Notes under the pieces: generated by a model
Databases searched by the model: none
What the model saw: the letters and a program-made list of their open reading frames with translations, nothing else
What the model was told of the DNA's origin: nothing
From: Phallus indusiatus
Lineage: Eukaryota > Basidiomycota > Agaricomycetes > Phallales > Phallaceae
Direction: 5' to 3'
DNA length: 64,000 bases
Assembly (NCBI GenBank): GCA_027605045.1
Contig: JAQFWX010000009.1
Span: 620,001-684,000 of the forward strand
Shown: positions 1 through 48,190 of the stretch, in pieces
Numbering within the stretch: the stretch's first letter is position 1
Layout of the letters: each line of letters starts with the position of its first letter
Made by a program: the position numbers and the translations under genes

Positions 1-2315
1 CGGCCCGTGAATCGAGCAAAAGTCGACGCCTCCAAGAAATATGCGCTTGGTAGGTTCAGCATCCACGTGAGTGGATATTTTCCGAAATAAACAGGTTATT
101 ATTAGGGTATAATATACTCAACCCCACCGTTATGTTCGAAAAATGCGTCGTAAAGTCGGAGAGTATATACTTCTTTTTGTTCCCTTTACAGCTGAACGCT
201 CCACTCAGCATTGTTTATAATGATACACGGAAAGAAAATTTCAAGCTTACATTGGTCTACCAAACCCGTATGCAGATGGATGTAAGGAATAAACGAGTTG
301 TCTGACGATTTGATACGCCAAAATCATGTGAGCAGGTGACGGGGTCAGACGAGGTCATCTCAATTTCAGTCATTATTGATAAACAGAGTATATTTGCTAG
401 GGAGATTAATTTAGCGAAAGCTGTCCGCGGATAAAATATCAACGCTACCCTAGTATTTCAGCTCGATCAGCTTCCCTCAGCGTCTCATTAAACGGACAGA
501 CTTCTTCTATCAAGGTTTTTTGAAGACACCAGAAGCTTCCAGCTCGTAGTGACATGATAAATCGAGGATCTTCCGAGCCCAAACCAACCATCGAATAGCG
601 GTAAATTTTAGACTTTTTAATTATAGGATACCACGTTTCGCGACGAAGAGAGGTCCATAAAGTGACGCGCGTACATGTTTTTCCTTGGGTGGCTACGGTT
701 CCCGCGGGCGGCTCCACAACCTAACACGATACTTCTCCGGACTGAATGGAGAAATTGAAATGCCAGCGAATTTAGACAAAATTCCCCATCATGAGAGCAA
801 CCTCCATCTTCAATGAAGATCACGCGCGAGAGGGCATTCTGTTAAGAAGCCAGGTGAAACCATCTGCATCAGGGTTGAGTACTTCTCGGACACCCGGAAT
901 TTATTGACCGACTATTGAGGTTGAGGTCACGAGTTACAGACAAATCCTACACAGCTTGAAGCTGAACGGTCCGCTTGGAAATTGAAGAATAGATTGAGAG
1001 TTTATTCGACATGGCATCAAGAGGAAGTACAAGATAGACACATCATCGTGACCGTCACGGCGTTACTTGGCTTTTCTGATCAACCACCATCATCTTTTGC
1101 CTGTCTTTCGAACGTTTGGACTACAAGGCGTATCTTTTTATTTGCTGCCATGCTGGCGTTACTGTCTTTGGATGATCTTTTTCACATTTATTTCTTCGCG
1201 TTATGATGTTCGGCGATGGAACTAAACCTGTATTGCTATCTCATCTCTTTATTTTGCGAAGAGCTTTTTGAAGTTTCCTGTGCAGCAGCATGAGACGATA
1301 AAAGTCATGTAGAGATGCTGTGCGGTATGCTTTGGTGGGGATTTTCATACGGAAAACATCGACACTACACCCCGACAAAATCTTCGTTCCTCCTACCTGT
1401 ACAAGGGCGATGTAAGATTTCTTTAGGACAGGCGTTTGTTTCATCTCCAATGTCGACCGGGGTGATGTTGAAAAAAAATTATGACTTTATTTGCAGTCTC
1501 TCTGCATATATATAAAATTAGATCATCCTGGTTCGTTCGAAACCTATAATGCGATGTTTATATTTTAACTGAGTCGCATTTTATTTTTTACACTATCACT
1601 CAAAAAAAATAATAAAATCAAAAGAAATATCTATTTTGATCAAATTAATTAAAATAACGCGTGTTGGCTGGTGGATCTCCGATACCACTGGTAATACAGC
1701 AACTGGAAACCGCCTACAGTCGAACCTCTAGTAAGGCGTACCCTTCCGTGGACACAAAACTATGCCTTACTGGAGGATATGACTTAGGGGGGATGTCCGG
1801 CAATTTCCGAATCCTCGGCTGTGCTCTAGACGTCGGCTTACGTGATAGAAGTTAGCATATCCTCTGCACAATGACAAGACGAAGCCAACATCTTCCAGTT
1901 GATGAGCCCCGATTTTGCCGAATTTTATTCATTATGATGCTTTTACTCTTTTTTAGGACATTTGAGCGCTACCTCTCGCCAAATTCATGACTTGCATCTC
2001 CTTAATAGGGTACTAATCATGCCTTTTTTTTTCCTAAAAAGGTATTCCTTATGAGGTATTGGAGGATTATGCATTATGCCTTATGCCTCTCAAATCACCG
2101 CCCACCGACTCGGGAGTCCCAAAATTTATGCCTTACTGGAGGATATGCCTTATTTGATGTATGCCCTATTAGGGTTTCGACTCTACGTGATTTGATGAGT
2201 TCAGTACTCAGTACCAAGCGCTCAGATCATAAGCTAAGTTTCCAAACGCCACATTAATACCTAGCAATTTACGGTTCAATTACACCTTAACTCAACATTC
2301 AATATCTAATCTTCA
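1..2315. other. Gene-poor left edge, no supported gene
   Basis: Only short overlapping ORFs of 60-90 codons on both strands are present, none with a recognisable motif, signal peptide or convincing splice chain. The only structure I can support is a 21-bp direct repeat (separate entry). AT-rich runs occur near 1560-1650. The far left could hold the edge of a gene lying outside the window, but nothing shows it. Confidence 0.5.
1761..2147. repeat. Two copies of a 21-bp direct repeat
   Basis: A perfect 21-bp sequence beginning TATGCCTTACTGGAGG occurs at 1761-1781 and again at 2127-2147. Each copy is preceded by a short CAAAA tract and followed by CTTA. Further partial echoes (CTTATGAGGTATTGGAGGATTATG) lie at about 2048-2070. 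This looks like the remnant of a dispersed or tandem repeat. I see no terminal structure or target-site duplication. Confidence 0.6.
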
Positions 2316-4864
2316 ATGACGAAGCTCTCATCCTCTTTACTCCCGCTTTCAAATCGCCACCATGTATCCACTCCAAATTCGTCTCCAATGACTTCACATC
2401 GTTCGTTTCCCCAGAGATTCCAGCACTATAGGCCGAAAATCGCGATCCGACGTTTCACTATTTTACTTTGGTCTCTAACTGTACTCGTTTTTCTCGGTTT
2501 GATGTGGCGCCTGTTCAACGAGGGCAATGGCGCAAGTGACGAGAAGATCAATGCCGGTCGCACCAACAGCCTTGTCAACCACGCAGCTCACGACAGTTTG
2601 CACGTTTGGAGATGGGAGATACTGAGTGGACACTATCCTAGTAGAGATTGTGAGTGTTATCATCTACTCTTCAAAACAGCGCTGTACTTCGTGTTTTCTC
2701 TGAGCACGTACGGATTCGGCGACTAGACGCGTTTCACTCACGTATTCCTTATGTTCTTCCTTTTGGTTCACACTGAGCATCATATTAAATGTATTTTTTT
2801 ATTCTAGTGCCAAAACCTATTGTTACGACACTTCGCGACAGGTCCATCAATAATCCAGCCCTTCCTAATGAGGCAATCAGCGCTTCTAACTCTCGCTTTC
2901 CGCTAATCGGAACTGGTTTTAAAAGAGAGTATTTACAAACAAGTGGCCAGTTTCGCTCGAATCAAAATTCGTCAACCGCATTTTTATATCCGAAGCGACC
3001 CCCGCCGGGTAGCATCGCCGATTTCGACGTGATAATGCGCATTTGCGACTATAAAAATAGACGAGTATGCCATGTTTTATTAATTTCCTATTTATTTATC
3101 CTTTCATTCTAATCATCACATAAGACATCTCGCGATTGCCTCGAAAATCTCCGCCACGGTGTCGGTCTGGACGATACAGATTCCCTTCAAAGGGACACGA
3201 ATTTAAACGTTCCTGAACCATATATTTATATCGAAAGAGAAAATGGGAGAGATTATCGACCAGCTGACATAACACCAAGCATTAATATACCTTCCCAAAT
3301 CATGAACCCATCGCCTCTCTCTTATTATACTCATTCCGACCTAGTAACGAGTTTGTTACGGCTCGATACGAACAATACTGCTACCTTTACCTCTGCTGCT
3401 CAAAGTTCTTCATGGCCTTGCGATCCCAATCATCCCCGTATATTTCACCTTTTCTGGAGCGGTCCCTTCACGTCTCACCCGTACATGGCAATTCTCTCAT
3501 TTCTTTACACACAAAATTTGGGGCTAGACCAGGATCCGAAGCGCCAACCTTTCTGTAAGCCAAGACTTTGGGTATGGATATGGGACTCCCATTCACTTTC
3601 TTCTGACGCGAATACCGAACGCGAACTTCACCGCACGCTGGCGTTAAATATGTGGTCTCGCCCGTTTCTTCACCCACGCTTTCATGACATTGTAGAGTTT
3701 AAGTGGTGGGACGTGTCTAGGCATTTGGATGAGATGGGAGATATTTTGGAAGGCTGGCGGGATGTTCTAGGCCTCAAAAATGGCGACAACACTTCAATCG
3801 TAGTTACCAACGAAGGAAAACCGCATGACAAGTCTAGCGCAGGATTCGTTACAATCGTTTCCGATATGGCACGGTTTGTCATCACATACTTGTACGGCGG
3901 GATTTACATCGATGCCGATACTATATTTCTTCGCGACTGGGAAGAGCTTTGGGGTTACCGTGGCGCATTCGCTTATAGATGGTCTCATATAAAAAACGAG
4001 TACAACACAGCTGTCTTGAAAATGAACAAGGGAAGCATGCTCGGAGAAATGCTTATCAGAGCGGCGAGAAGGGGTCATATGCGCAAGAAATGGTGGGAAT
4101 GGGGGAGAAGAAATAATATGATGGGCATGGAATTTCACCCCAAGGAAGGGATAAGTAAATACGTTGAGGAAATGGACCTCGTTTTACCTGTGGAATCTAG
4201 TGGTAGGAAAGGACTGCTTTGGATGCTCCCTGTCGCGTTGTTTGATCCCGCGTGGTTGGCTACTGACGGATACGAGACGAAGCGGATGACTGTCCCTGGG
4301 TTTAAGAGGTTTGTGACCGTTATAGTTTACAGTGATAAACTCTGAAATTCCGAGGTGTTGTTAAGTTTCAGTGATTTTTTCGAAACCCCTTCCTCTCTAC
4401 GTCACGAAGCGGAACTCTTGGGCCTTAACTTCGGATTCTACCGGGGCGCATATGCGTATCATTGGCATAATCAATGGCAAGTCAGCGCATTTTAGTCCTC
4501 AAATATCTATACTGATGTGTAATCTAGGAAGACGCCTTTCGACAAAGAACAGGAATATCCCAATTGGGGTAATAAACTTACCGAGTATACGAATGAACTG
4601 GAAAAGCTATACCCCTCGCTCGAATTTCACTTGACGCATGCACCTGAAAATCGATTGCCGTCACGTCCTGTTCATGCTCTGCAATCAGACGGGTCTGGAA
4701 TAGTCTCGTATTTCTCATTTTGGAAATGGCTTTGGCCATGGCAACATTCTGAAATCCTCGCCGAGGATAACAGTTTACCTTGGTCTGCCGTTATTAAACG
4801 TACTATGGAAGCGTTTATTCGCGGTGAAGCGCCTAATGTATACGGGGAATACTTTGTTTGGTGA
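2316..4864 (+). CDS. GT32 glycosyltransferase, type II membrane protein (copy 1)
   Basis: Five exons by eye: 2316-2649, 2808-3064, 3125-4308, 4372-4476 and 4528-4864, giving 738 residues. An N-terminal membrane anchor (TILLWSLTVLVFLGLMWRLF, about residues 49-68) suggests a Golgi/ER type II protein with a lumenal catalytic domain. The core carries the GT32 (Gly_transf_sug) signature GGIYIDADTIFLRDWEELWG, in which DAD is the DXD motif that binds the metal and nucleotide sugar. Family members transfer sugars such as mannose onto glycoproteins or glycolipids; the exact donor and acceptor are not visible. All four introns match the position and phase of those in the paralogue at 12081-14963. The last intron (4477-4527) uses a GC-AG donor where the paralogue has GT-AG. 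Relative to the paralogue it lacks a long acidic insert but carries a basic insert (RRGHMRKKWWEWGRR) after the DXD region. Confidence 0.85.
4477..4527 (+). other. GC-AG intron in GT32 copy 1
   Basis: The donor is G|GCAAGT and the acceptor CTAG, splitting a Trp codon (TG|G) between HWHNQ and KTPFDKE. The equivalent intron in the paralogue (14471-14650) has a normal GTGAGT donor and splits the same Trp codon, so position and phase are conserved and only the donor base differs. Confidence 0.75.
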
Positions 4865-5840
4865 AAGGATGTTGTTCTTGCATGATGAAACGTTGTTGAT
4901 GTTGTGTATCCCACTGTGAAGATTGCCACATGTTTATCTCAGTATGTCATTCTACCGTGGGAACGAGAAGTAATATGCAGACTGTATCCGTGTGTTTGTC
5001 AAGATTCAAAATCAATTGTCAAGTGAGTTCAAATCAAAACTCAGTCTAGAGATTTTTCAATCAAAGTACCAAGGAATTGATTTACCCGCGTGCCGAGTGT
5101 GCGAGATTTTGGCATCGCTATAACGACGCATATATGCACAATCTCGCCTCAGTTCTTTTCTATTTTAGCATAGAAACAATCAGCTTGAAGTCACTTTATT
5201 CCACACTTGAAGCCACACACATTGACATTGAAGGAGTCCGAGCTGAAGTCACGTCTGTAATCTAGTTCTGATAGGATAATCATCCAAAAACTCGCTTTTT
5301 TGTGTCATCTGAGTCTGATGAATTGTCATGAAAGATCACCATATGCGCACTTTTCTCGCTGAAGTCCGTTTTAACGTTTGAGTCCGCCAAGTTGACATGG
5401 ATGATTCATCTTTGACATAACACTGCGAATCCTCAAACTGGTTCAATTTTTCTCACGCGTACAATGCCGATGGGCACCTCGCAGTAGAATATATTTTAGC
5501 TGAGCCTTCGGAGACGCACTCATCATCTCCCCCGTCTATGGCGCGCCCTTTGCTTCGGAAGTTCGTGGCAGCCAGTCTGTTAAGCGAATGTTTCAAAGCT
5601 CGATGTACGTCAAATACAGACAACGAGATCGTATGCGACTCATTAAGACAAACGCCCGGTTAAAACCTGCTTGCTGATATCATCATACATTGATATATTA
5701 GGGGATACTTGAAAGGCCCCTAAACTCTGTTCAGAGTCAGGGCTTAGCAGTGACTAGTGACCAGTTGACTAGTCATCTCGTTTGTGATTTGACCATCTGG
5801 TTGCATCGAGGGTTGTTGATGTTTGTTACTTTTCGTATAG

Positions 5841-5847
5841 TATAAAT
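5841..5847 (+). promoter_or_regulatory. TATA box of small secreted protein gene 1
   Basis: TATAAAT lies 39 bp upstream of the ATG at 5886. Transcription would start roughly 30 bp downstream, leaving a very short 5' UTR. This supports the chosen start codon. Confidence 0.5.
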
Positions 5848-5885
5848 TGCTGGCCTAGGTAGTTTGAGCTACATTATACATTCAC

Positions 5886-6398
5886 ATGGCTAGACCAATC
5901 GTACTTTCTTTTCTTCTCATTTGTTTCGTTCATCTTACACTCGCTTCACCGATACCGGCTGGCCTTGATCGGCGAATCGTAGCTAATTCTCTTATAATTC
6001 CTCGGGTGTTAGACGGGGAAGATAGCGACGGAGTCAACAAATCTTTTCAACACCTGTCGCCAAAAGACTTCGTGAAACGCTGGCCCGATAGCGACTTCCA
6101 AAATAAAGAGACTGGTTCGAAACTTTGGACTTTGATAAAAATAACATCTCTTAATTCTTATGACAGGTTCTGGGTGTTTCGATTCCGGACTACATACCGG
6201 AACAGAGGCAAAGCCGACGGGATACCAGGTTTTTCATAGTAAACGAGATATCGTAAACGTGGGTTTTGGCGATCCCTTGTCTCCAGAAAAGCAAGAGATT
6301 GACCGTAATATATGTATGCTTTCCTTCTACCACTCAACGTGTAGTACTAACCCTTATTTGTTCAAGCTGAAGGATTTGATTTCCCCGAATTCAAGTAG
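5886..6398 (+). CDS. Small secreted protein, copy 1 (SPIPAGLD family)
   Basis: Three exons by eye: 5886-6114, 6167-6313 and 6367-6398, giving 135 residues. A clear signal peptide (MARPIVLSFLLICFVHLTLAS) is followed by PIPAGLD, then an acidic stretch and LSPKDFVKRW. The product is predicted to be secreted, with no recognisable catalytic domain. The paralogue at 7831 shares SPIPAGLD, the L-x-PKDF block and a C-terminal K/R-RDI motif. The second intron (6314-6366) contains a CTAAC branch site, and its removal gives an ending EGFDFPEFK. If that intron is not used, the ORF runs on to 6420 with an unrelated tail. The function is unknown; an effector-like or cell-surface role is only a guess. It lies downstream of a GT32 gene in a tandemly duplicated unit. 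Confidence 0.65.
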
Positions 6399-7760
6399 TC
6401 TAGCTTCACTGGAATCTTGAGCTATTCTTTCATTAGCGTATCGAAGCGTAGTAAATATAGATTACTGTAGATCTCTTTGGTGGCATATCGTGCATCTCCT
6501 CTCATCCAACTAACACCAAGCCCAGAGCTAGCTCTTGTAGACTCGAACATTCTGACCAATTGAAGATGATAGTGTTTAAGTCAGGCTATAAAATATACTC
6601 TCCCGGAAATCAGATCGCCGTGCGCACAGTTATCGAATGTTAAAGACACGAGGATAACCATTTTTTGCATAGTGAAAAAATGTTGATGTTGGTGTACCCC
6701 ACCGTGGTTGCCACATGTTTATCTCAATATGTCATTTCGCAGCGAGAACGAGAAGTAATAGGTTGTAGTTGTTGTCGCACGTCGCTCATCAATGCATCAA
6801 GGTTGACTGTAAGGCAAACTCAAATTAAAACTCAGTCTAGATATTTTTAATCAAGAGATCGGAGTTGATACACGGCGTGTACCGAGCGAATCGCGGAATT
6901 TGGTCCTCGATATAGTGCCACATATATGCGCATATCTCACCTGACATATTTGGGCAAAGAGCTGGGTTTAATTTTAGCATAGCAACACAATCAGTTTGAC
7001 TCGTCGATTTTATTGTCAGCGCAAGTGGCACAGGCTGGCGTTGAACTTCCAAGTGCGACTTGGCCTCCTGTGATGGAAGGCTTGCGAGCTGAAATCGCTT
7101 CTAAAGTCGAGTTTTGCATCAGGGTCATCCAACACTCGCTCTTTTGTGTAATATTTTGAGGAACTGTGGCTTAAAAACCACAATATGTTCACCCTTCTAC
7201 CTGAAGCCGGTTCGAATTTGCTAAGTTTACAATGTAGTATGCCAGTAACGCCGTATGCGATTCGTCTTTGATTTAACACTGCGGGTCTTTGAATATGTGA
7301 TTTCAATAATATTCCTCACACGTGCAACGCTAATAGGCATCGCGCAATAAGATGAGAATGTTTCAGTTGAGACGAATCACCATCACTCCCGGACCCTGAA
7401 GACCGCGGTAACCCAATTACTGATCTGCAAGAATATCCGACGAATGCAGCGACTCGAAGCAATTTGCACCTGGCAAGAGTTTAGGCATTTTCTCCTTTTA
7501 TATAGTTACCGCTCAGTACTCGCAGCATCCTTCATTTGAGCTAACAGCCCCATAGATACTAGAAAACTCGCAATTATCTCTGTTGGTAGTGAAATGTCGT
7601 GAATCTCATCTCTTTCAGAACCAATATTGGCCACAGGAGGATTAAAACCCAGATTACTGATGAATTATATTTGAATCAAATTTATTAGATGATGGCAAAA
7701 TTTGGCTAGATAACAATGATGCATGATGTTCAGACAAAAAAAAATAAGATCCCTCTTGAG

Positions 7761-7768
7761 TATAAAAG
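7761..7768 (+). promoter_or_regulatory. TATA box of small secreted protein gene 2
   Basis: TATAAAAG lies 63 bp upstream of the ATG at 7831. It argues against the upstream in-frame ATG at 7723, which would precede the transcription start. Confidence 0.5.
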
Positions 7769-7830
7769 CTGAAATGATTTGTTTGGAGCATAAACTCATA
7801 TTTCTCAGCTTTCATTCAAATTGCACCTAC

Positions 7831-8300
7831 ATGGTCCGGTTTACCATATCCCCATTCCTTTTTGGCCTTATTTTTACCCATCTTTTTGTTCACGGGTCGC
7901 CAATTCCAGCTGGTCTTGATGAGACCCTGTCTAATTCCTTTCATTTATTGAATCCCAAAGACTTTGAAACTAGAAGTGAAGCCGATGGCCCTTTACAATC
8001 ACAGCCAGTGGACCTGGTAGATCGACGGCTCCATATCAGCGGCTCCAGCTTCGCAGTAGCCTCCAACCCTGGTTTGACCATTTAAAATTTTTCGTATGAA
8101 CAACTTCTCATCTTTCTCCAGATTCTACGTGCGCTAATATCGAACCGAGATCAGGGAATGGGAGTGAACAGACTGTCAATGGCCGTGAAGACGACGTTTC
8201 TGGACTCGGCGATGTAAATTTAACAACGCCGACAGAATGTCAGACAAGAAGAGACATCTTGGGAAAGGGTTATGATTATCGTAGTGACTCTATGTACTAG
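7831..8300 (+). CDS. Small secreted protein, copy 2 (SPIPAGLD family)
   Basis: Two exons, 7831-8071 and 8122-8300, giving 139 residues. The signal peptide is MVRFTISPFLFGLIFTHLFVHGS, followed by PIPAGLDE, then LNPKDFETR. The second exon has two cysteines (in STCANIEP and TECQTRRDI) and ends GYDYRSDSMY. It is a paralogue of the gene at 5886, with the same first intron position and phase. The start is chosen from the TATA box at 7761 and because the signal peptide begins there; an in-frame ATG at 7723 would add 36 unlikely residues. No enzymatic motif is visible. Predicted extracellular, function unknown. Confidence 0.65.
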
Positions 8301-38655: not shown

Positions 38656-38664
38656 ACGGTGGTA
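38656..38664. repeat. Target-site duplication, left copy
   Basis: ACGGTGGTA directly abuts the left terminal inverted repeat of the large mobile element. The identical 9 bp abut its right end at 46774-46782. A 9-bp duplication is characteristic of Mutator-like elements. Confidence 0.85.
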
Positions 38665-38733
38665 GGGCCATGAGAATTTGACGCGCGAGCCCACCGCGCT
38701 GCCGCGACATTGGCGCGAAGTGAGAAAAACTTA
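38665..38733 (+). repeat. Left terminal inverted repeat
   Basis: It begins GGGCCATGAGAATTTGACGC and continues through CCGCGCTGCCGCGACA to GAGAAAAA. It aligns over about 65 bp with the reverse complement of 46707-46773, with scattered mismatches and a few 1-2 bp gaps. The outer GGGC and GAGAATTT, and the CCGCGCT-CCGCGACA block, are conserved. Confidence 0.8.
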
Positions 38734-38916
38734 CTGTATGATACGAACTTGCACTGCAGAGTTTAAGAGAATATTGAATATAAGTAGAAAATAGATTCAC
38801 AATGATTGTAGAACTTATTTCTAAGGGTGAAAGCAGCATTTTAAGCAAAAAATACCATGTTTAAGCAGGCGCGGTAAGGATACCTCGTATGGCAACTCGG
38901 CACGGTAAAGTTTCTT

Positions 38917-39062
38917 GACTTAGCAATTCGCGCGGTAAAGGCGCGCCAAAGATTATTTAAGGAATCTTTGGCGTGCCTTTACCGCGCGAATTGCTAAGTC
39001 AGGAAGCTTTGGCGCGCCTTTACCGCGCCTTTAGCGCGCAAATTGCTAAGTCAGGAAGCTTT
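38917..39062. repeat. Subterminal palindrome and direct repeats
   Basis: Positions 38917-38954 and 38963-39000 are 38-nt inverted arms with one mismatch around an 8-nt spacer (ATTTAAGG). The arm contains GCAATTCGCGCGGTAAAGGC. Fragments of the same sequence (TTGCTAAGTCAGGAAGCTTT, GGCGCGCCTTTACCGCGC) recur through 39062. Just inside the left end of the transposon, this may be a transposase-binding array or a nested miniature element. Confidence 0.75.
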
Positions 39063-39554
39063 ACCGCGCTAAGTTCCCATATGAGGAATCTTTATCGCGC
39101 CATTAGATAAGCATTGTTCAAACTTTCGCCTTGCTATTGGACAATCATTTAACGGATATTTGATATATTTATTAATATCTAAAATGGTTTGGGATATATC
39201 ATTATTCTTATATTAAATCCTTATAATTAAATTTTGATATTCAGGATTGGTTTAAATATTTATATCATCAGTCGGCTGCTCTTCTCGCCAATCATTATAC
39301 TTCTGCTGGAAACTGCAGAGAAAAGAGTTAATGAGTTCCAACTAATTAATGATTTATAATAGCTTATCATTTTTTAGTTGCTGGAAAATATCAAGAGGAC
39401 TCACATCCCCTAGGAATGTTACCTGGATATAATCACAAAGGTTATTATCATATAAAAAAAATATATCTCTACTTATATTATCTACATAATAGGCGAACCA
39501 TTTGGCTATTTTGTACATCCAGATCACTCTCGTATAATCTTTTATTTTATCTTT

Positions 39555-42500
39555 ATGATTTTCCATCAACTCACAAATATTATAGATACAGTATCCCAAA
39601 ATAAAAACATCCTGCCCAGTTCTCCTGCTTCGGATCCAATACCACCAGCACAAGTTCCCTCGATCACTTCTGAAACTAGCTCCAGCCAATTGCTATTATG
39701 TCTCAACACTCCTTCAAACTTACCTTCAGTCATTATAAACCCTAATCCTAGTTCTACTCCCTCAACTTCTCCACCTTCAGCTGAAGTTACAAATACGAAC
39801 TCAATACCACTACCTCTCTCTACTTCCCCTGCTCTTCAGACGAATCCAAATGTATCAAAAGTAACCCCTGTAATACAGCCAGCAGTCAATTCAGGAAATC
39901 AGATTCACTTCCCTGGGCAGCCTCCTTTGAATCAAATTCCAACTATAGCAACTCAGGCAAATAAATCTAAATTACCCGAACAAACTGTAAACAAAGAAGC
40001 TCCACCCCATATAGGTGTAAATAAAGCTATTCCTCAAACAGAAATTAATTCTGTAAGTATTGTAAAATTCTAATAAAAAGAATGAATACTAAATATTTAT
40101 ATTTATAAAGAACTTATTATGGGATGGCTGGCCTGATGGCGATTGGAGTCAAATCTATACCCATGCTGAATTCGAGGAACTCGATAAATTTGCTGTACAC
40201 TGGGCAATGAAAACTGGAGGTGGTGATAAATATGGCGATACAGAGGCCACTAATCCTATGAAAGGCAAAGTCACTCGCCGGTTTTGTCAAGGGGTTATAA
40301 AATGCAATAACTCAAATTGCGAAATTCTTGTTCGCCCTCAAACGACTAGCCATGGTCTATCCAAACAATTACAAGAGTCATGTCGCTGTGGGTGGAGCTT
40401 ACACCATATCACCTGCCCTGTCGAGTCAAAGTATTATCGTTTCAAAGGTGGCTATTTATATCAAAATGGTGGCCACCACACACATCCTCGACCAGCATAT
40501 ATTTTACATCTACAACGGAAGGACCGAGATAAATTCGAGCAACTCATCCATATATATCCCAAAACAAGTGCACTCAAACTTGCTGTTGGAGTTGGTACCG
40601 ACAATCAAAAGGCTACCGATATTTCCCCAATTTTTTTTAATGTCGATCGTATTCGATATGAAAAAAAAAAGATTGAACGACCTTTGGTTCAGGATACGAG
40701 CTTGGATGGCTTAACCGAATTCGATGAACAATATCCTGAATTTATGAAGTCGACACACTTGGGTTCTGTCACAGTCTTATCGTTTCAGACTTCATGGATG
40801 GCATGGCATATGGTTCAAGAAACTCATCTTGCTGAACCAGTGAATGGATTCGTCACTGATGCTGCACATAATTTTTGGAAAGCATCAAATGTTCAGCTTA
40901 TTATCAGTTCGGTGTACTCGCAACTTTTACACCGATGGATCCCCACACTTTTCTCATATGCGAATGGTGGAACTACCGAACACTACCAACTGCATTTTTA
41001 CACCCTGTTCCAAACTGTACATGCTGAATGCACTCGCCGAAGCCTTCAAATGACAGATAAAATGCTTGCAACAGTTATGGATTTCAGTGTTGCCCAATCT
41101 AATGGCTTCGTTGCAGCATTTGTGCAATTTTGGGGGAGTATTCCTACCGATACCCGGTCACCTGAGGAGTTACAAACTGCAGCTAATGCATTGATCAAGG
41201 GGTGCTTACAGCATTTTCGTACAGGAGTAACTCGCTTGAAGAAAATCAGTGGTATCGTCCAGCCTACTTTGGCAGAAGCTTTCGAACAAAGAGCCCTTGC
41301 TTTATTGGATGCCAATGATATTGCCGAATTCAACGAGAAGGCCTCACTTTTGACTCGTGAATTTCCAGGTGTACAGCCCTGGTTGCGATGGTGGAAACAG
41401 CAAGGGCCTGCTGAAAAAATATTCAAGGCTTTTCGGGTTATGGATGATGAAACCTGGGCACAACTTCCAGCGACAACTAATGCCGAGGAAGCTATGCATT
41501 TCAGCCTATATCGGGCTGCTAGTAAAAAGAATGGGTTCATAGAAGGGTTGAAAGGGCTGTATCATTATGCGAAGTGGCTGATGGGCCAAAGTACAGCAGT
41601 TCGTGTTGGTATGCCAACAATCTATGGTCAGCCTGAACCATGGAAAGCTACTGCAAAAGAAATTGGTCGGACAAAGTATACTCGTAATCGTAAAAAGCCA
41701 ATCCCTAATGATGGTAGACCACCCGATACTGCCAAGGCTCTGATGGTCGGAAAAACCCCTGTAACCCATTCTTTCCAAAGCTACCCTTGGAAAAATAATT
41801 CCTGCTGGCTCGACACATCTTTGGAGTTACTATACCAGGCTAGTCTTCTCATATCCAAAGAGTTCCAGGATGCTTTGGCTGGTTCTGATATATCAACTAC
41901 AATCGGTTCACTATATTATACCCTAAGCGAACGACATCTATTAGAAGCAGTGCATAATACCAGCTATGCAGACCTTTTATCACTAAAACGAGATCAATTC
42001 CGAAAGTTATTAGAAGATAAGAAGCTCCTTGTAGGGATGAATGCTCCAGAATCATTATTCGGATGGCTTAATGGAGCAATTAGGGAGTATCGTTCCAAAT
42101 ATGATACTATCACTCTCTTCGAAATCTATGCAATCGATATTCGTTCCTGCAAATTAGGAAATACCATGCATTCAAAAATCGAGAAAACCAGACGATTATC
42201 AACTCGCGAACTACTTCCTGCCCAACACAAGGTCTTTCAAGGAAGCCTGCAAAAATGGTTTCAAAATTCTATCAGTTCCCCAGTCGTTGACAAGAATATT
42301 AGCTGTTGGAAAGCTACTGAAGGGAAAATTCACTGTATGGGCTCAGCGACACATACAACAGTGTGGCTCACACTTCCGACAATTCTTGTCATAGAATTTG
42401 ATGGTACTGGAGGGGGGCCAGCATGGATTACTCCAAAAATACTACAGGGTGCTTCTGAATATCGGGACATCAAATACCATTTGATAGGCAAAGGCCATTA

Positions 42501-44677
42501 CACATCATCATCAGCACATTACACTGCTAGTTTCCAGAACAATCAGCATTTATACGAGTATGATGGTCTCAAGAACTCGGGAAAGCCCACTCGTATCCCT
42601 AAAGGCTCACTAGCAACTCATGGTCAGGATTATACTATGAGTAATATCAATGCTGTCGTTTATATCTTGGAAAATCCTGTCACTTCTCAAGAACTCTATC
42701 ACAAAATTCGGATTGCATGGGTTCAGCAGCATTACCATCTCATTCCAGATCCTTCTCAAAAAAACCAGATGCGATTCATTCCTGAGGATGAACATTTTTC
42801 TATTCTTACTCCAGAGGAGCGATTCTGGATGACCAACCCTTACGATGAGACTGTTATCGATTATGTCTCAAACCAGATACCTCCAACTCCATCTCCTAAA
42901 AAGCACGATTCAATGATTTCGTCCAATTGGAAGTGGTTGCATCGCAGGCCAGTGATGCCAGCCCCCCTCAGAAGAATATTCGGTCTAGCAAATTTCATAA
43001 GAAATTTCAAACTGTCAGGAGCGATGTAGAGACAGAAATGGAAACAGACATAGCCCCATCCTCACCTAGACCTCCCTCCAAAGATGAACTCATATCTGGG
43101 AATTCGCTTGCCAGCTTAACCAATACATCTGTACTTTCCGATTTCCCTATCAACTGTCGGTGTGGATTTCAAGGTGATGGCAATTCTCCTGATATTGACC
43201 ATGAAAAGTGTGTTCAATGCTGGACATGCAATCAGTGGTCGCATATTGCCTGTCAGTATGATGGTCAAGCAAGCAGGCTATCTGCAAAAGCTCGGTTTAC
43301 ATGCCACGATTGCGATATTTCAAACCTTGTGAATATGCTTCGGCCGAAATCATCCAGAAGGGAGAACCAGGCTTTCATCGAATTATCTAAACTGCCTCTT
43401 TCTGAACGATTAATGTGAGTACAGATATTATATGCATATATATATATTAATTATATTTAGGCCTGGCAAAGGTGTATTAGTTCGCCATAAGAAATATCAT
43501 TATCCAGCTCGATTAATCGCTCGTGATGAAAATTCGGGAGAATGGCGAATTAAGTGGTGGCGATTAAATCAATATGAATCCGATACCCCGAGAACATCAA
43601 TTATAACCCCTCAAGATATCGTAGACTGCCTGTGGAATGATCTGAAATCCAGACGACTCATACGAGTAAGGATTCTATGAAGCTAACTATAACATTTTAA
43701 TAATATCTATCAGTTAGGAAAATGGAAAATGGCCTGCACATTAAATGGCGAAGAAGATATTATCCTTGACTTTGAGAATATCCAGCCAGATTCAGAGATC
43801 GTAAAGATTCTGTCACCCCATAAAAAGGAGCTGCATACTATTATGACTACTCCTAAAGAGGTTCCTTCAAGTTTATGTCCAGCTTTATCTTATTTGCGAG
43901 GGAAAACGATTATTTTTTCCAGAAACATTGAAGTATCTTGGAAAAAAAACAGCATCGTTCCATTCACAGGATATCTCTCGCCAGAGGAATGTGCCAGTGT
44001 AAATGCTTTCATCTACAGGTACTTGCAACCAGCAAGTTCGAATCGTACCCGATGGCTTCAAAAGGCTGTAGTGGCACATGCCATTACTCTTATTATTTTG
44101 GCTCACAAATTCAATAACTCAGCTGATGTTGGCAGCGATGAATATTTGAAATTACTCGAACAAGCTTGGGCTTTACAAACCGAGTCCAGGCCTATATCTA
44201 AAGGGGTAGATGTAGATCGCGAGGCTATTTTCCTTTTAGAACGACGCATGTTTGAGACTTCAAAGGCAGGAGGTCTCGCTAGTCATCAACAATGGGGACT
44301 AGATGCTGGAACACACCAGGAAAAGTGGAGCCCCTATCCTGACATACCCGAAGAATGGAACCTCCGAGATTATGATGAACCAGAGGACGATATTTATGAA
44401 GTGAGTATTTATTTGATGGCTCAGCTATACTACTTATTCAATCTAATTATTTTAGACTGGCTCTAAATTTAGTGACGACGATAATGGTGGAGATAAAAAC
44501 AATACTACTCGTTTAACTGTGGCTACAGTTCTAAAAAAACCAAGGCCAAAACCTAGAATGGTTTCAAGAATAGGAAAGCGAAAAAGAACTGAAGAGAATA
44601 GTGCCATTCCCACACCCAAAAAAGGAAATAGTATTGAAAAAATTATATACATTCATCATTTATTATTTCTTAGATAA
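39555..44677 (+). CDS. GCM-type zinc-finger transposase fused to USP-like protease and PHD finger (frameshifted)
   Basis: Visible exons: 39555-40052 (Pro/Ser/Thr-rich linker, true 5' end uncertain), 40111-43414, 43461-43665, 43714-44400 and 44456-44677. Residue numbers below count from the ATG at 40207. Domains in order: a GCM/WRKY-like zinc finger (TRRFCQGVIKCNNSNC, CRCGWSLHH, GGHHTHPRP). Next a DDE-like transposase core with candidate acids D218 (FVTDAAHNFW), D292 (VMDFSVAQSNGF) and E427/E428 (TTNAEEAMHF). Then a ubiquitin-specific-protease-like domain with the Cys box NNSCWLDTSLELLYQ (C533) and His box SSAHYTASF (H771) then YEYDG (D786). Last, a PHD finger (CVQCWTCNQWSHIACQ ... CHDC), a small basic barrel-like block (KGVLVRHKKYHYPARLIARD) and a Lys/Arg-rich tail. 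Between USP and PHD the frame shifts at a run of five A (42898-42902); one extra A would restore it. The last 15 bp overlap the convergent dioxygenase gene. Confidence 0.77.
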
Positions 44678-46327
44678 TTTTCCAGAAGCCAGCCTCGCTG
44701 ATTTCCCTTTGAGAGCATTTGCTATAGCTATGTCATATGCCTTTTTGATATGGTTAGAAAATGCTATTACCATTCCCGATCTTGATGTAGTTGGTCTCGC
44801 TATAGTCGTTCCATGCCTATACTTCGGTTTGAAAATAAGGAGGGTATCGGCAGCCGACTCTACAAGTACTCGCAATGAAACATCGGTAAAATTACCACCA
44901 GCAGACTGGTTCGGTTGTAAGGGACCAAGTGAAGTATGCTTTACAGACCATGCGAATGCATACTCTGCATAACATGGGTCAGCATGTGTGGGGCTATGCA
45001 GAGAATACATAAGTAAGCATGTATAAGAAAGGGAGCGAATTTTACATACGCTGCATAATTAGTAGCAAAATATCCCTCACAAGGGCCTTTATTTACAGTA
45101 GGAAAGTTGAATTCCTGATCACCAACGATAATAGTGTAACCAGGAAAATCTGTACAAGCTAATCAATACCTTTAATTTGTACTGAAATTGCACTAACCTT
45201 TACCAAATCTTGAATCAATTTCAGGCATACCCGATGACTCAATAGCTTTTTCAACGGACTCAACGACCTCTTGTGGAGCATGAGATCGTATAAGATGCCA
45301 AAAAAACGAAAGTGCGCCAATCGCTTGTTCATCTTGTTGAGACTTGGCATCTATATCGAGCTTGGCCGATTTAAAATTGTTTACAAGGCCAAAAACCCGG
45401 CAGTGACGAGGCCCTGCATTGTATCCCAATTGAACCATAGTTCCGGGATGATTGGGCTATCATATATTAGCTTGAATGAGTTTAAAAAATATCAATCTTA
45501 CCCGAACATTCCGACGATATGCAACACCTGCCTGTATGATATGGTCCATCGACTTTAGAAGGGAAGGGTTATCGGAGACATTGCGAATAATTGCAAGCTC
45601 AATATCTCCTAAAAAAAGTATAAGAAATAAAATAAAATACTGGTTAATAGAGCATACCTTGCGAGTTGCAAATTATCGCACTCTCGCCAGCCTTCACCTT
45701 TTTCCACCCTGCCCCGACACCAACCACCCGCATTCTCCCTCGATCTTTCGGTGAAACGAACTGTTTATTACCTCGATCAACTAAAACTACTTTGGATTTT
45801 ACGCATGGAACGACATCGCGATTCCGAAGCAGCATCGGAATACCCATCTGGGCTGCTAGGGGTGCAGGTGACATCAAATTGAGAGACTTTACCTGTAGAT
45901 TAACGCATATATAGGCTAAACAATTACAGTATGACTGAAACTTACAAACTGCTTTTTTTCCCACTTTTTTCCTGCATGCTGATAGCGATGGAGCTCCTGA
46001 TACTTGCGATAAATAGCTACATGCCCAGGATCAGGCATGTTCGGGAGTAAAGGGAGTAGCTGTTCAACCTATATTCAATTTATTAGCAATTCTCATAGAA
46101 TATTTCGTTAAAACATACCGAGTTTATTGTGTACTTATGCCTCAAATTATTGTTTATAGCCTGGATTGCAGCGAGTGTGCTTGGGGTAATATTACCAGCT
46201 TGCATATCGGTAATAAGCGGTGTTTCGGTGGCAATTTTGGCGAGAACTGTGAATTAAATCAGTTAGATATAAGAAGAGTTACGGATGACCTACAGTTTTG
46301 CTGTTTTTTGTGGTTTTTGGTAGACAT
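44663..46327 (-). CDS. 2-oxoglutarate/Fe(II) dioxygenase-like protein carried by the transposon
   Basis: Eight exons: 46327-46294, 46246-46119, 46068-45946, 45892-45658, 45608-45502, 45456-45198, 45149-45050 and 44993-44663. All junctions are in phase, giving 438 residues. The C-terminal third has the double-stranded beta-helix signature: H332-A-D334 (PTHADPCYAEYAFAWSV), then GGNFTDVSLR, a second iron His (H389, KPKYRHGTT) and R400 (TSRSGMVIAFSNHIKKAYD), which would bind 2-oxoglutarate. The N-terminal two thirds are conserved-looking but unassigned (MGIPMLLRNRDVVP, VVGVGAGWKKVKAG). Family members hydroxylate or oxidise bases, proteins or small molecules. Sitting inside a DNA transposon it could be a TET/JBP-type nucleic-acid oxidase, but that is inference. 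No stop or frameshift was found, unlike its neighbour. The start ATG follows from a short first exon (MSTKNHKKQQN). Confidence 0.73.
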
Positions 46328-46706
46328 GGCAGCACTCGCGCGTCGACGCGACTGTACCGCGCCAGCCGAGTTTGAGTTACGTAAGCATTGTTCGAACACT
46401 TGCCTAACACCACCACTTCGCGCGACCTACTTCACCCACACCCCAGTAACAGTTCTATTCTACCTCTTGTTGTTGTGCTCTGGGGTCAGGTGGGACAACA
46501 GGAAGGGTCCAGTCACAAGCTGGATTATGGATAGGCTGTTTCCGGGTCAAGGTGCTGGGGCAGGGGGCGCTGCAAGGCCTGCGGCAGGTGTGGGGGATTT
46601 AAGCAGGTGTAAGGGGTTTCAAAACAATGTATTAGCTATTTTACGAATATACTACAGTCCCTTGCGCAGCGTCGAGCCCCGGGGGCACTTGAAGCAGGTA
46701 TTTAAC

Positions 46707-46773
46707 TATTTTTTTGCAGCGCGCGGCACTGTCGCGGTAGCGCGGCAGGCTGAGCGCTAAATTCTCGTAGCCC
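46707..46773 (-). repeat. Right terminal inverted repeat
   Basis: Read on the minus strand it starts GGGCTACGAGAATTTAGCGC and continues AGCCTGCCGCGCTACCGCGA, mirroring the left end. It is GC-rich and borders further GC-rich subterminal sequence at 46480-46700. Confidence 0.8.
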
Positions 46774-46782
46774 ACGGTGGTA
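46774..46782. repeat. Target-site duplication, right copy
   Basis: ACGGTGGTA is identical to 38656-38664 and immediately follows the CCC that closes the right terminal inverted repeat. Confidence 0.85.
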
Positions 46783-47208: not shown

Positions 47209-48190
47209 TTACGACAAGCATTGAGAGTAATAAGCTGCACTATGTTTTAGCAAAGAATTCCAAAGCTGAATATTCGGTGACATACGGTTTATGACTTGGC
47301 AAGTGAACGGCGACTCGCAGACAGTACCACCGGTCCAGCCTGTACCACCGCACTGACCCCATTCGGGAACGCTACCAGAAGCTGGAGGTGAAGTCGGTGT
47401 GCTGACTGGCGTAGTTCCTCCTGTCGTGGTCGGGGGTGTCGATCCTGAAGAACCCCCGCCGGAGACAGTGATAGAAGAAGATCCGCTACTCTCATAACCT
47501 TCGGTAGCCAGAATCTGGTAGTTGAAGGTTCCCAAAGACATTCCAAGGCCTTCCCAAGCAGTAAAGTGGTTTCCGGTGGTGATAGTTCCACCGACTCGGT
47601 GGCTTGAGCGGATAGACCAGTACTGGTTAAAGGTTTCCGTTCCCAAAATTGAAGGAGCGTTTTCACGAACAGTCATGTAGATGTCGTAAGTGGCACCATC
47701 TGAGGTGACAGTGCCCATTTGTGTTAAACCCGTGCTGGGATTGTAGTCGCCGTAGGAATCGCAGATATAATACTCGACGAGCGGGTCTGTAGTCCAACCA
47801 TAAACGGAGAGGTAGGCGTTACCGTCAGGACTAAAAGTTCCACTGTATGTAATCTCCCTAGAGCCCGTTTCTGGTGAGCAACTGAAAGTTTTTTGGTTGT
47901 TCAACTCACTGAGCGCTTCCTGGGTTCCAACCGATTCCAGCAACAACGTCGACCGAAGACGCAGTCCAAGTAAGGCTGTATTCGCCATCTCCAATGTTCA
48001 TTGTGACTCCGCTGTCAACCTCCTCATACAAGGAGTAGTAGAAGCCGTCAACTGTTCCGGTCCCGCTAGAGACCGCTTGGCCTTGACGACGAACGAGTTG
48101 GTTGGTAGCATTGAGACTTGCAGGCTCGAAGGGGATGGCTAAAACCGCCGCGGCGGAAACGAGGGAGAAAAGAGACGCGAAACGGACCAT
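47209..48190 (-). CDS. Endo-1,4-beta-xylanase, GH11 with C-terminal CBM1
   Basis: Three exons, 48190-47910, 47857-47286 and 47234-47209, give 292 residues. The signal peptide is [20 protein letters not shown], with a likely dibasic propeptide site (LVRRQ). The GH11 jelly-roll contains [40 protein letters not shown], the nucleophile Glu in [33 protein letters not shown] and the acid/base Glu in [13 protein letters not shown] Gly/Ser/Thr/Pro linker leads to a CBM1 ([17 protein letters not shown] ... INPYYSQCLS). It cleaves internal beta-1,4-xylosyl bonds of xylan outside the cell while the CBM docks it on cellulose. The first intron ends at CTCTAG, joining GWNPGSAQ to EITYSG; other acceptors break the frame. 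A TATA box lies upstream. It is a paralogue of the CBM1-only gene at 37292. Confidence 0.93.

Follow-up and report, generated by a model that had tools for sequence, protein, structure and literature searches.

A probable Mutator-like transposon of Phallus indusiatus that may encode its own TET/JBP-like anti-silencing enzyme

In a 64,000-nucleotide stretch of the Phallus indusiatus genome (contig C195:620001-684000, hereafter the window, from an assembly of 67.2 Mb in 206 contigs), two convergent genes lie between a pair of identical 9-bp sequences. The locus raises the question of whether these genes, one for a transposase and one for a putative dioxygenase, form a mobile element and what each of them contributes to it. 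A preliminary description of the window had proposed a complete transposon of about 8.1 kb with a perfect 9-bp target-site duplication, carrying both genes as orphan cargo. Our analysis places the transposon at 38665..46773 of the window (8,109 bp), and we read it, with a probability of about two in three, as a recently active Mutator-like cut-and-paste element that would encode its own anti-silencing enzyme.

The duplication ACGGTGGTA stands at 38656..38664 on the left and at 46774..46782, directly outside the right end; these are its two exact occurrences on the plus strand of the window, and there are none on the minus strand. The outermost ends, GGGCCATGAGAATTT and GGGCTACGAGAATTT, pair at 13 of 15 bases, and when both ends were aligned over 93 columns, 65 positions were identical, 24 were mismatched and 4 were gaps. 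The inverted repeats had been described as degenerate, which they are, and as about 65 bp long, which falls short: they measure about 90 bp, with ~93 bp on the left (38665..38757, plus strand) and ~89 bp on the right (46685..46773, minus strand). One could argue that such boundaries combine a chance 9-mer pair with a chance inverted repeat. We generated 200 dinucleotide shuffles of the window and looked for 9-mer pairs flanking an inverted match of at least 12 of 15 bases, with a spacing of 0.5-12 kb. Such a pair appeared in 8 of the 200 shuffles (9 matches in total, the two best at 13/15), and the real window has one match. Since the shuffles yield pairs as good as the real one, the 9-mers and the inverted match are by themselves only suggestive; the boundaries are settled by a second full copy, by shorter derivatives, by a diverged sister element and by an empty site.

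The second full copy, on contig C133, shows 99.96% identity across element bases 1-8109, has the same two end bases and carries its own 9-bp duplication, TTGTGACCC. There are no substitutions between it and the window copy, the differences being three one-base length changes in A-runs. A genome search with the left end gave at least 12 matches, the window included, eight of which also have a right end and a perfect 9-bp duplication: the two full-length copies and six short derivatives of 0.93-1.22 kb, which have in common the left inverted repeat and end in a related but diverged right end. One of these derivatives (C162:240k, L026) has three extra C between the end and the duplication. The genome search with the right end found the two full copies only, and its matches stop exactly at 46773. 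Besides, a protein search identified a diverged sister on C121 with a 60% identical transposase, whose ends GGGCTATGGGAATTT and GGGCCTTGAGAATTT enclose 9,247 bp and are flanked by a perfect 9-bp duplication, GCTCGGCAT. All copies for which both ends were found finish at corresponding bases, and the 9-bp duplication is present in nine out of nine (two full, one sister and six short).

Regarding the remaining left-end matches, the one on C192 (96%) had no right end within 6.75 kb. At this locus (L023 1-3250, with L058) the left 400 bp of the element, at 96%, are followed by an unrelated interior; either the copy is truncated or the element is another, larger one. No convincing right end was found for three matches with 73-74% identity (L030, L031 and L032); these more diverged left ends have a common outer flank, as if they lay inside a larger repeat. 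A broken, rearranged copy of the C121 type occupies C162:607-634 kb (L013, L014, L012 and L034); its two transposase halves point in opposite directions, and the dioxygenase gene lies some 10-25 kb off.

The insertion site was also found empty elsewhere in the assembly, in what may be the other haplotype or a duplicated region. C143:283064-283364 is 96% identical, over all 300 bases, to the window flanks joined with one copy of the target, and this single copy, ACGGCGGTA, differs by one base from that of the window. On C151 the flanks of the C133 copy are matched at 76% and the element is absent, with several gaps, one of them of 4 bases beside the target, which make this site less clean. The pairs obtained in the shuffles speak for chance boundaries, but exactly the same ends are seen in the second copy and at the empty site, and the left one in the derivatives, so we reject this explanation, whose probability is negligible. 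The preliminary description was exact to the base regarding a complete transposon, and its proposal that everything between the ends moved as one unit is borne out by the second copy, the sister element, the short derivatives and the empty site. The empty sites, together with full copies that differ by no substitution, indicate that the element moved recently.

The first of the two supposed cargo genes is the transposase gene itself. It spans 39555..44677 on the plus strand, with exons at 39555-40052, 40111-43414, 43461-43665, 43714-44400 and 44456-44677, which were delimited by eye with the help of GT/AG sites and the frames of relatives; its start is uncertain. The frame of exon 2 shifts in the window copy at an A-run near 42903, where the C133 copy is open. 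Relatives of the protein occur almost exclusively in mushroom-forming fungi, which, like the presence of introns in the genes, fits an agaricomycete host, and we compared 20 members of the family. The plus-strand gene encodes four recognizable regions. A GCM zinc finger (40246..40497) is matched by PF03615 at E=0.0075 for the window protein alone and at E up to 1 in 8 of the 20 members, and the family profile matched the crystal structure 1odh at E=6e-10. The DDE-type transposase core (residues 180-450; 40744..41556) contains D218, D292, C333xxH336, W396 and E428, kept in every row with letters there (19 or 20 of 20); its predicted structure has a mean pLDDT of ~87, compared with 74.7 and a pTM of 0.43 for the whole transposase model. 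Structural comparison of the predicted protein gave a match list filled by structures of ubiquitin-specific proteases (USP), and the transposase is thus predicted to bear a USP-type fold at residues 528-827 (41788..42687; C533, H771 and D786). The catalytic Cys is present in 14 of the 20 rows, the His in 19 and the Asp/Asn in 19 (one gap). Finally, a PHD finger (CRCG...CWTCNQWSHIAC...CHDC; 43155..43313) is matched weakly by PF00628 (E=0.03; at E up to 1 in 11 of the 20 members), and the comparison of the family profile with PHD structures reached 4e-10 for 4bxz.

Just inside the left end, at 38868-39101, there are strong nested inverted repeats, GCGCGGTAAAG/CTTTACCGCGC, that could form long hairpins. 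These GCGCGGTAAAG-rich subterminal repeats have 84-nt arms that are 83% complementary, are partly kept in the short derivatives and constitute a candidate transposase-binding region.

The size of the duplication had led the preliminary description to call the element Mutator-like. This fit is strengthened by the 9-bp duplications of the other copies, the GCM zinc finger and the D-D-CxxH-W-E motif, while formal membership is unproven. Mutator-like elements (MULEs) such as Muta1 of Aedes aegypti have 8-10-bp duplications, inverted ends, an N-terminal zinc finger and a DDE core that carries C/H and W (PMC5225508), and our element resembles them in its 9-bp duplications, inverted ends, N-terminal finger and C/H and W residues. 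The spacings are also close, with 74 residues between the two D (69 in Muta1) and 136 between D and E in both. In contrast, the C/H motif lies 44 residues past the second D, and not 24 as in Muta1, and the position of W also differs. Unlike MULEs, for which the criterion is a terminal repeat of over 100 bp, the element has degenerate repeats of just under that length (~90 bp), a transposase with USP-fold and PHD domains and a TET/JBP-like gene. PF10551 (MULE) matches none of the 20 members, and a Pfam MULE search of the genome gave 16 matches, none of them at the element locus.

These differences bring in the alternative that the transposase represents a separate DDE superfamily, placed between Mutator and hAT. 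The lack of PF10551 matches, the unusual fusion of USP and PHD domains to a transposase and the distance of the C/H motif from the second D argue for it. On the other hand, the 9-bp duplications of all nine two-ended copies, the GCM finger and the D-D and D-E spacings near those of Muta1, together with C/H and W, favor a transposon of the Mutator-like kind, and we regard a separate superfamily as unlikely, though still worth weighing. Members of the hAT superfamily generate 8-bp target-site duplications, and the 9-bp duplication in nine out of nine copies rules against them. Kyakuja (KDZ) was likewise rejected: its reported 7-bp duplication and lack of inverted ends (PMC12730594) differ from the 9-bp duplications and inverted ends found here, and PF18758 has no match at the locus, among the matches listed, nor in any of the 20 members. 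KDZ and Plavaka are both present in the genome, but among the matches listed none falls at the element or at the listed dioxygenase places, the nearest one lying on C112, about 13 kb from such a place.

The second gene, on the minus strand (44663..46327), has eight exons (46327-46294, 46246-46119, 46068-45946, 45892-45658, 45608-45502, 45456-45198, 45149-45050 and 44993-44663) with GT-AG introns, and encodes 438 aa with no internal stop. As read, it and the transposase gene overlap at their 3' ends. A database search with the protein found one relative, P0028 (64%), which shows 96-99% identity, exon by exon, to the C121 and C162 copies; further members of the genome are 40-51% identical to P0028. 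Searching with an alignment of six members returned P0028 only, among the 8000 candidates sharing most words that were scored. H336, D338, H393 and R404 (P0028 numbering) are invariant in all six, and constitute the HxD...H iron triad and the downstream basic residue that binds 2-oxoglutarate (2OG) in TET/JBP-type Fe(II)/2OG dioxygenases. PF20515 matched P0028 at E=8e-4 over nearly its whole profile, and PF12851 matched a Helitron-side member at E=0.0024, both below the curated cut-offs. Pfam gave no match to any oxygenase family other than these two TET/JBP ones; the family protein on C122 had no Pfam family match. A sequence search against solved structures gave one chance-level row for P0028 (E=1.2) and none for the alignment. 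Motif, weak profiles and genomic context suggest that the gene encodes a divergent TET/JBP-like dioxygenase, an assignment that is unproven.

Relatives of this gene also sit beside other kinds of transposons. Two of them (L054 15-3630 and L052 893-2681) are convergent to open reading frames (ORFs) for PIF1/Helitron-type helicases; the L054 helicase matches Pfam PIF1 (E=2e-13) and is Helitron-like in sequence, and L052 was assigned by its resemblance to L054. At two near-identical loci (L053 774-3285 and L041 1150-3678), the relative lies beside an integrase-like ORF that had no transposable element family match in Pfam and that we take to resemble IS3EU transposases. In a tree of six rows, the two Helitron-side copies pair at 100/100, the Mutator-side pair formed by the window and P0028 at 82/84, and the IS3EU-side copy with that of C112 at 100/99. 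Adjoining the Helitron-borne gene, at L054 4451-7962, there are gag and pol ORFs, presumably Ty3/Gypsy-like.

It could be that the minus-strand gene belongs to the same transposon and encodes some other 2OG dioxygenase, acting for example on histones, RNA or proteins, with no counter to DNA methylation. The sub-threshold TET/JBP matches, the single database relative at the sensitivity of the search used and the poor quality of the structure model are compatible with this. However, the oxygenase matches in Pfam are to the two TET/JBP families, and within one genome the gene accompanies several kinds of transposon, as known transposon TET/JBP genes do. We consider an enzyme of another specificity distinctly unlikely, and a TET/JBP-like one the better reading.

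The gene could also have been captured a single time and be carried along passively, as Mutator-like elements often pick up genes (Pack-MULEs; PMC5225508). But the C121 sister retains it in the same convergent position, with 64.7% identity, a dN of 0.27 and saturated dS (422 codons). For the transposases of the same two elements, dN is 0.32 and dS 2.7 (894 codons). This similarly strong constraint on both genes speaks for a dioxygenase that has a function in the element and is not cargo, and a passive passenger seems very improbable. The earlier view of two orphan genes moved as cargo is accordingly replaced by that of a transposase gene and an accessory dioxygenase gene.

In the mechanism that we propose, the GCM finger would bind both the subterminal repeats rich in GCGCGGTAAAG and the ends themselves, and cutting and rejoining of DNA with 9-bp staggered breaks would be the work of the DDE core. 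The USP-fold domain probably strips ubiquitin from the transposase, which would protect it, or from chromatin proteins, and the PHD finger is probably a reader of histone marks. The dioxygenase would act on the DNA of the element itself, oxidising a methylated base there and countering silencing. The element would hence encode the means both to move and to relieve its own silencing.

Several observations weigh against this reading. The activities of the transposase, the USP domain and the dioxygenase are proposed from sequence. The three A-runs that differ in length between the full copies all lie in exons by our reading, two in the transposase and one in the dioxygenase gene. When the full copies are compared, one or more genes of each are out of frame with respect to the other copy, and neither copy as assembled is demonstrably intact in both genes; homopolymer sequencing error is the likely cause. 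The USP nucleophile is Gly in one of the 20 rows and missing (a gap) in five. No Pfam transposase family, PF10551 included, matches the core, and an hhalign profile comparison with one ordinary MULE of the same genome, which is a weak test, was negative. As for the dioxygenase, each TET/JBP family matches two of the six members (E up to 1), below the curated cut-offs, and the window protein gives E=0.053 with PF20515 and a better 0.0028 with an unrelated toxin-nuclease family. Its AlphaFold prediction came out at a pLDDT of 34.8, leaving the double-stranded beta-helix fold expected of TET/JBP enzymes unconfirmed.

A broader proposal, for which we put the odds somewhat short of even, is that the element represents a new anti-silencing lineage. 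It would belong to a Mutator-like or sister superfamily, in which one transposase polypeptide unites DNA binding (GCM), strand transfer (DDE), deubiquitination (USP fold) and histone reading (PHD), and would carry a fourth, HxD-type class of TET/JBP-like enzymes of transposons that, in one genome, has passed among elements of the Mutator-like, IS3EU-like and Helitron kinds.

To the right of the insertion, at 47209-48190 of the window, there are minus-strand ORFs that we take to resemble a GH11 xylanase that is secreted and binds cellulose through a CBM1 domain.

In order to contextualize these results, we compared the element with known systems. Kojima 2025 reported TET+ fungal transposons among Kyakuja, Zisupton, Dileera, hAT, IS3EU, Harbinger, EnSpm, ESTA, Plavaka and Helitron, and proposed that TET/JBP-like enzymes relieve transposon silencing (PMC12730594). 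As in those transposons, the TET/JBP-like gene of our element adjoins the transposase, and its dioxygenase family is common to several transposon kinds; unlike them, its transposase is of a kind absent from that list. In the text of that paper, 'Mutator' does not appear, 'MuDR' does so in the introduction only, and none of the ten lineages is a Mutator-type carrier. The PE type described there has HxE, while the family of our element has HxD in six out of six members, which sets it apart from this one of the PE, PU and AG types of that paper. Protease domains for ubiquitin or ubiquitin-like proteins are known from transposons: in plants, MULEs and CACTA elements contain Ulp1 protease regions (PMC2528002), and Helitrons contain OTU/VTD deubiquitinase domains (PMC9741609). 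Our element is similar in that its transposon protein would bear a domain of this kind, and it differs in that the fold is of the USP type and sits inside a DDE transposase. A literature search, in which titles were listed and most subscription journals were outside coverage, found no Mutator-type TET/JBP carrier and no fusion of USP and transposase.

According to these results, an element of defined boundaries, for which there are an almost identical second copy and an empty site, would combine a transposase of Mutator type and an enzyme of TET/JBP-like kind. The USP fold in the transposase suggests the removal of ubiquitin as a further route of transposons around host control. If the empty sites belong to the other haplotype, methylation could be compared between a filled and an empty site in one strain, and the idea that the TET genes of transposons shield their own element would then become testable.
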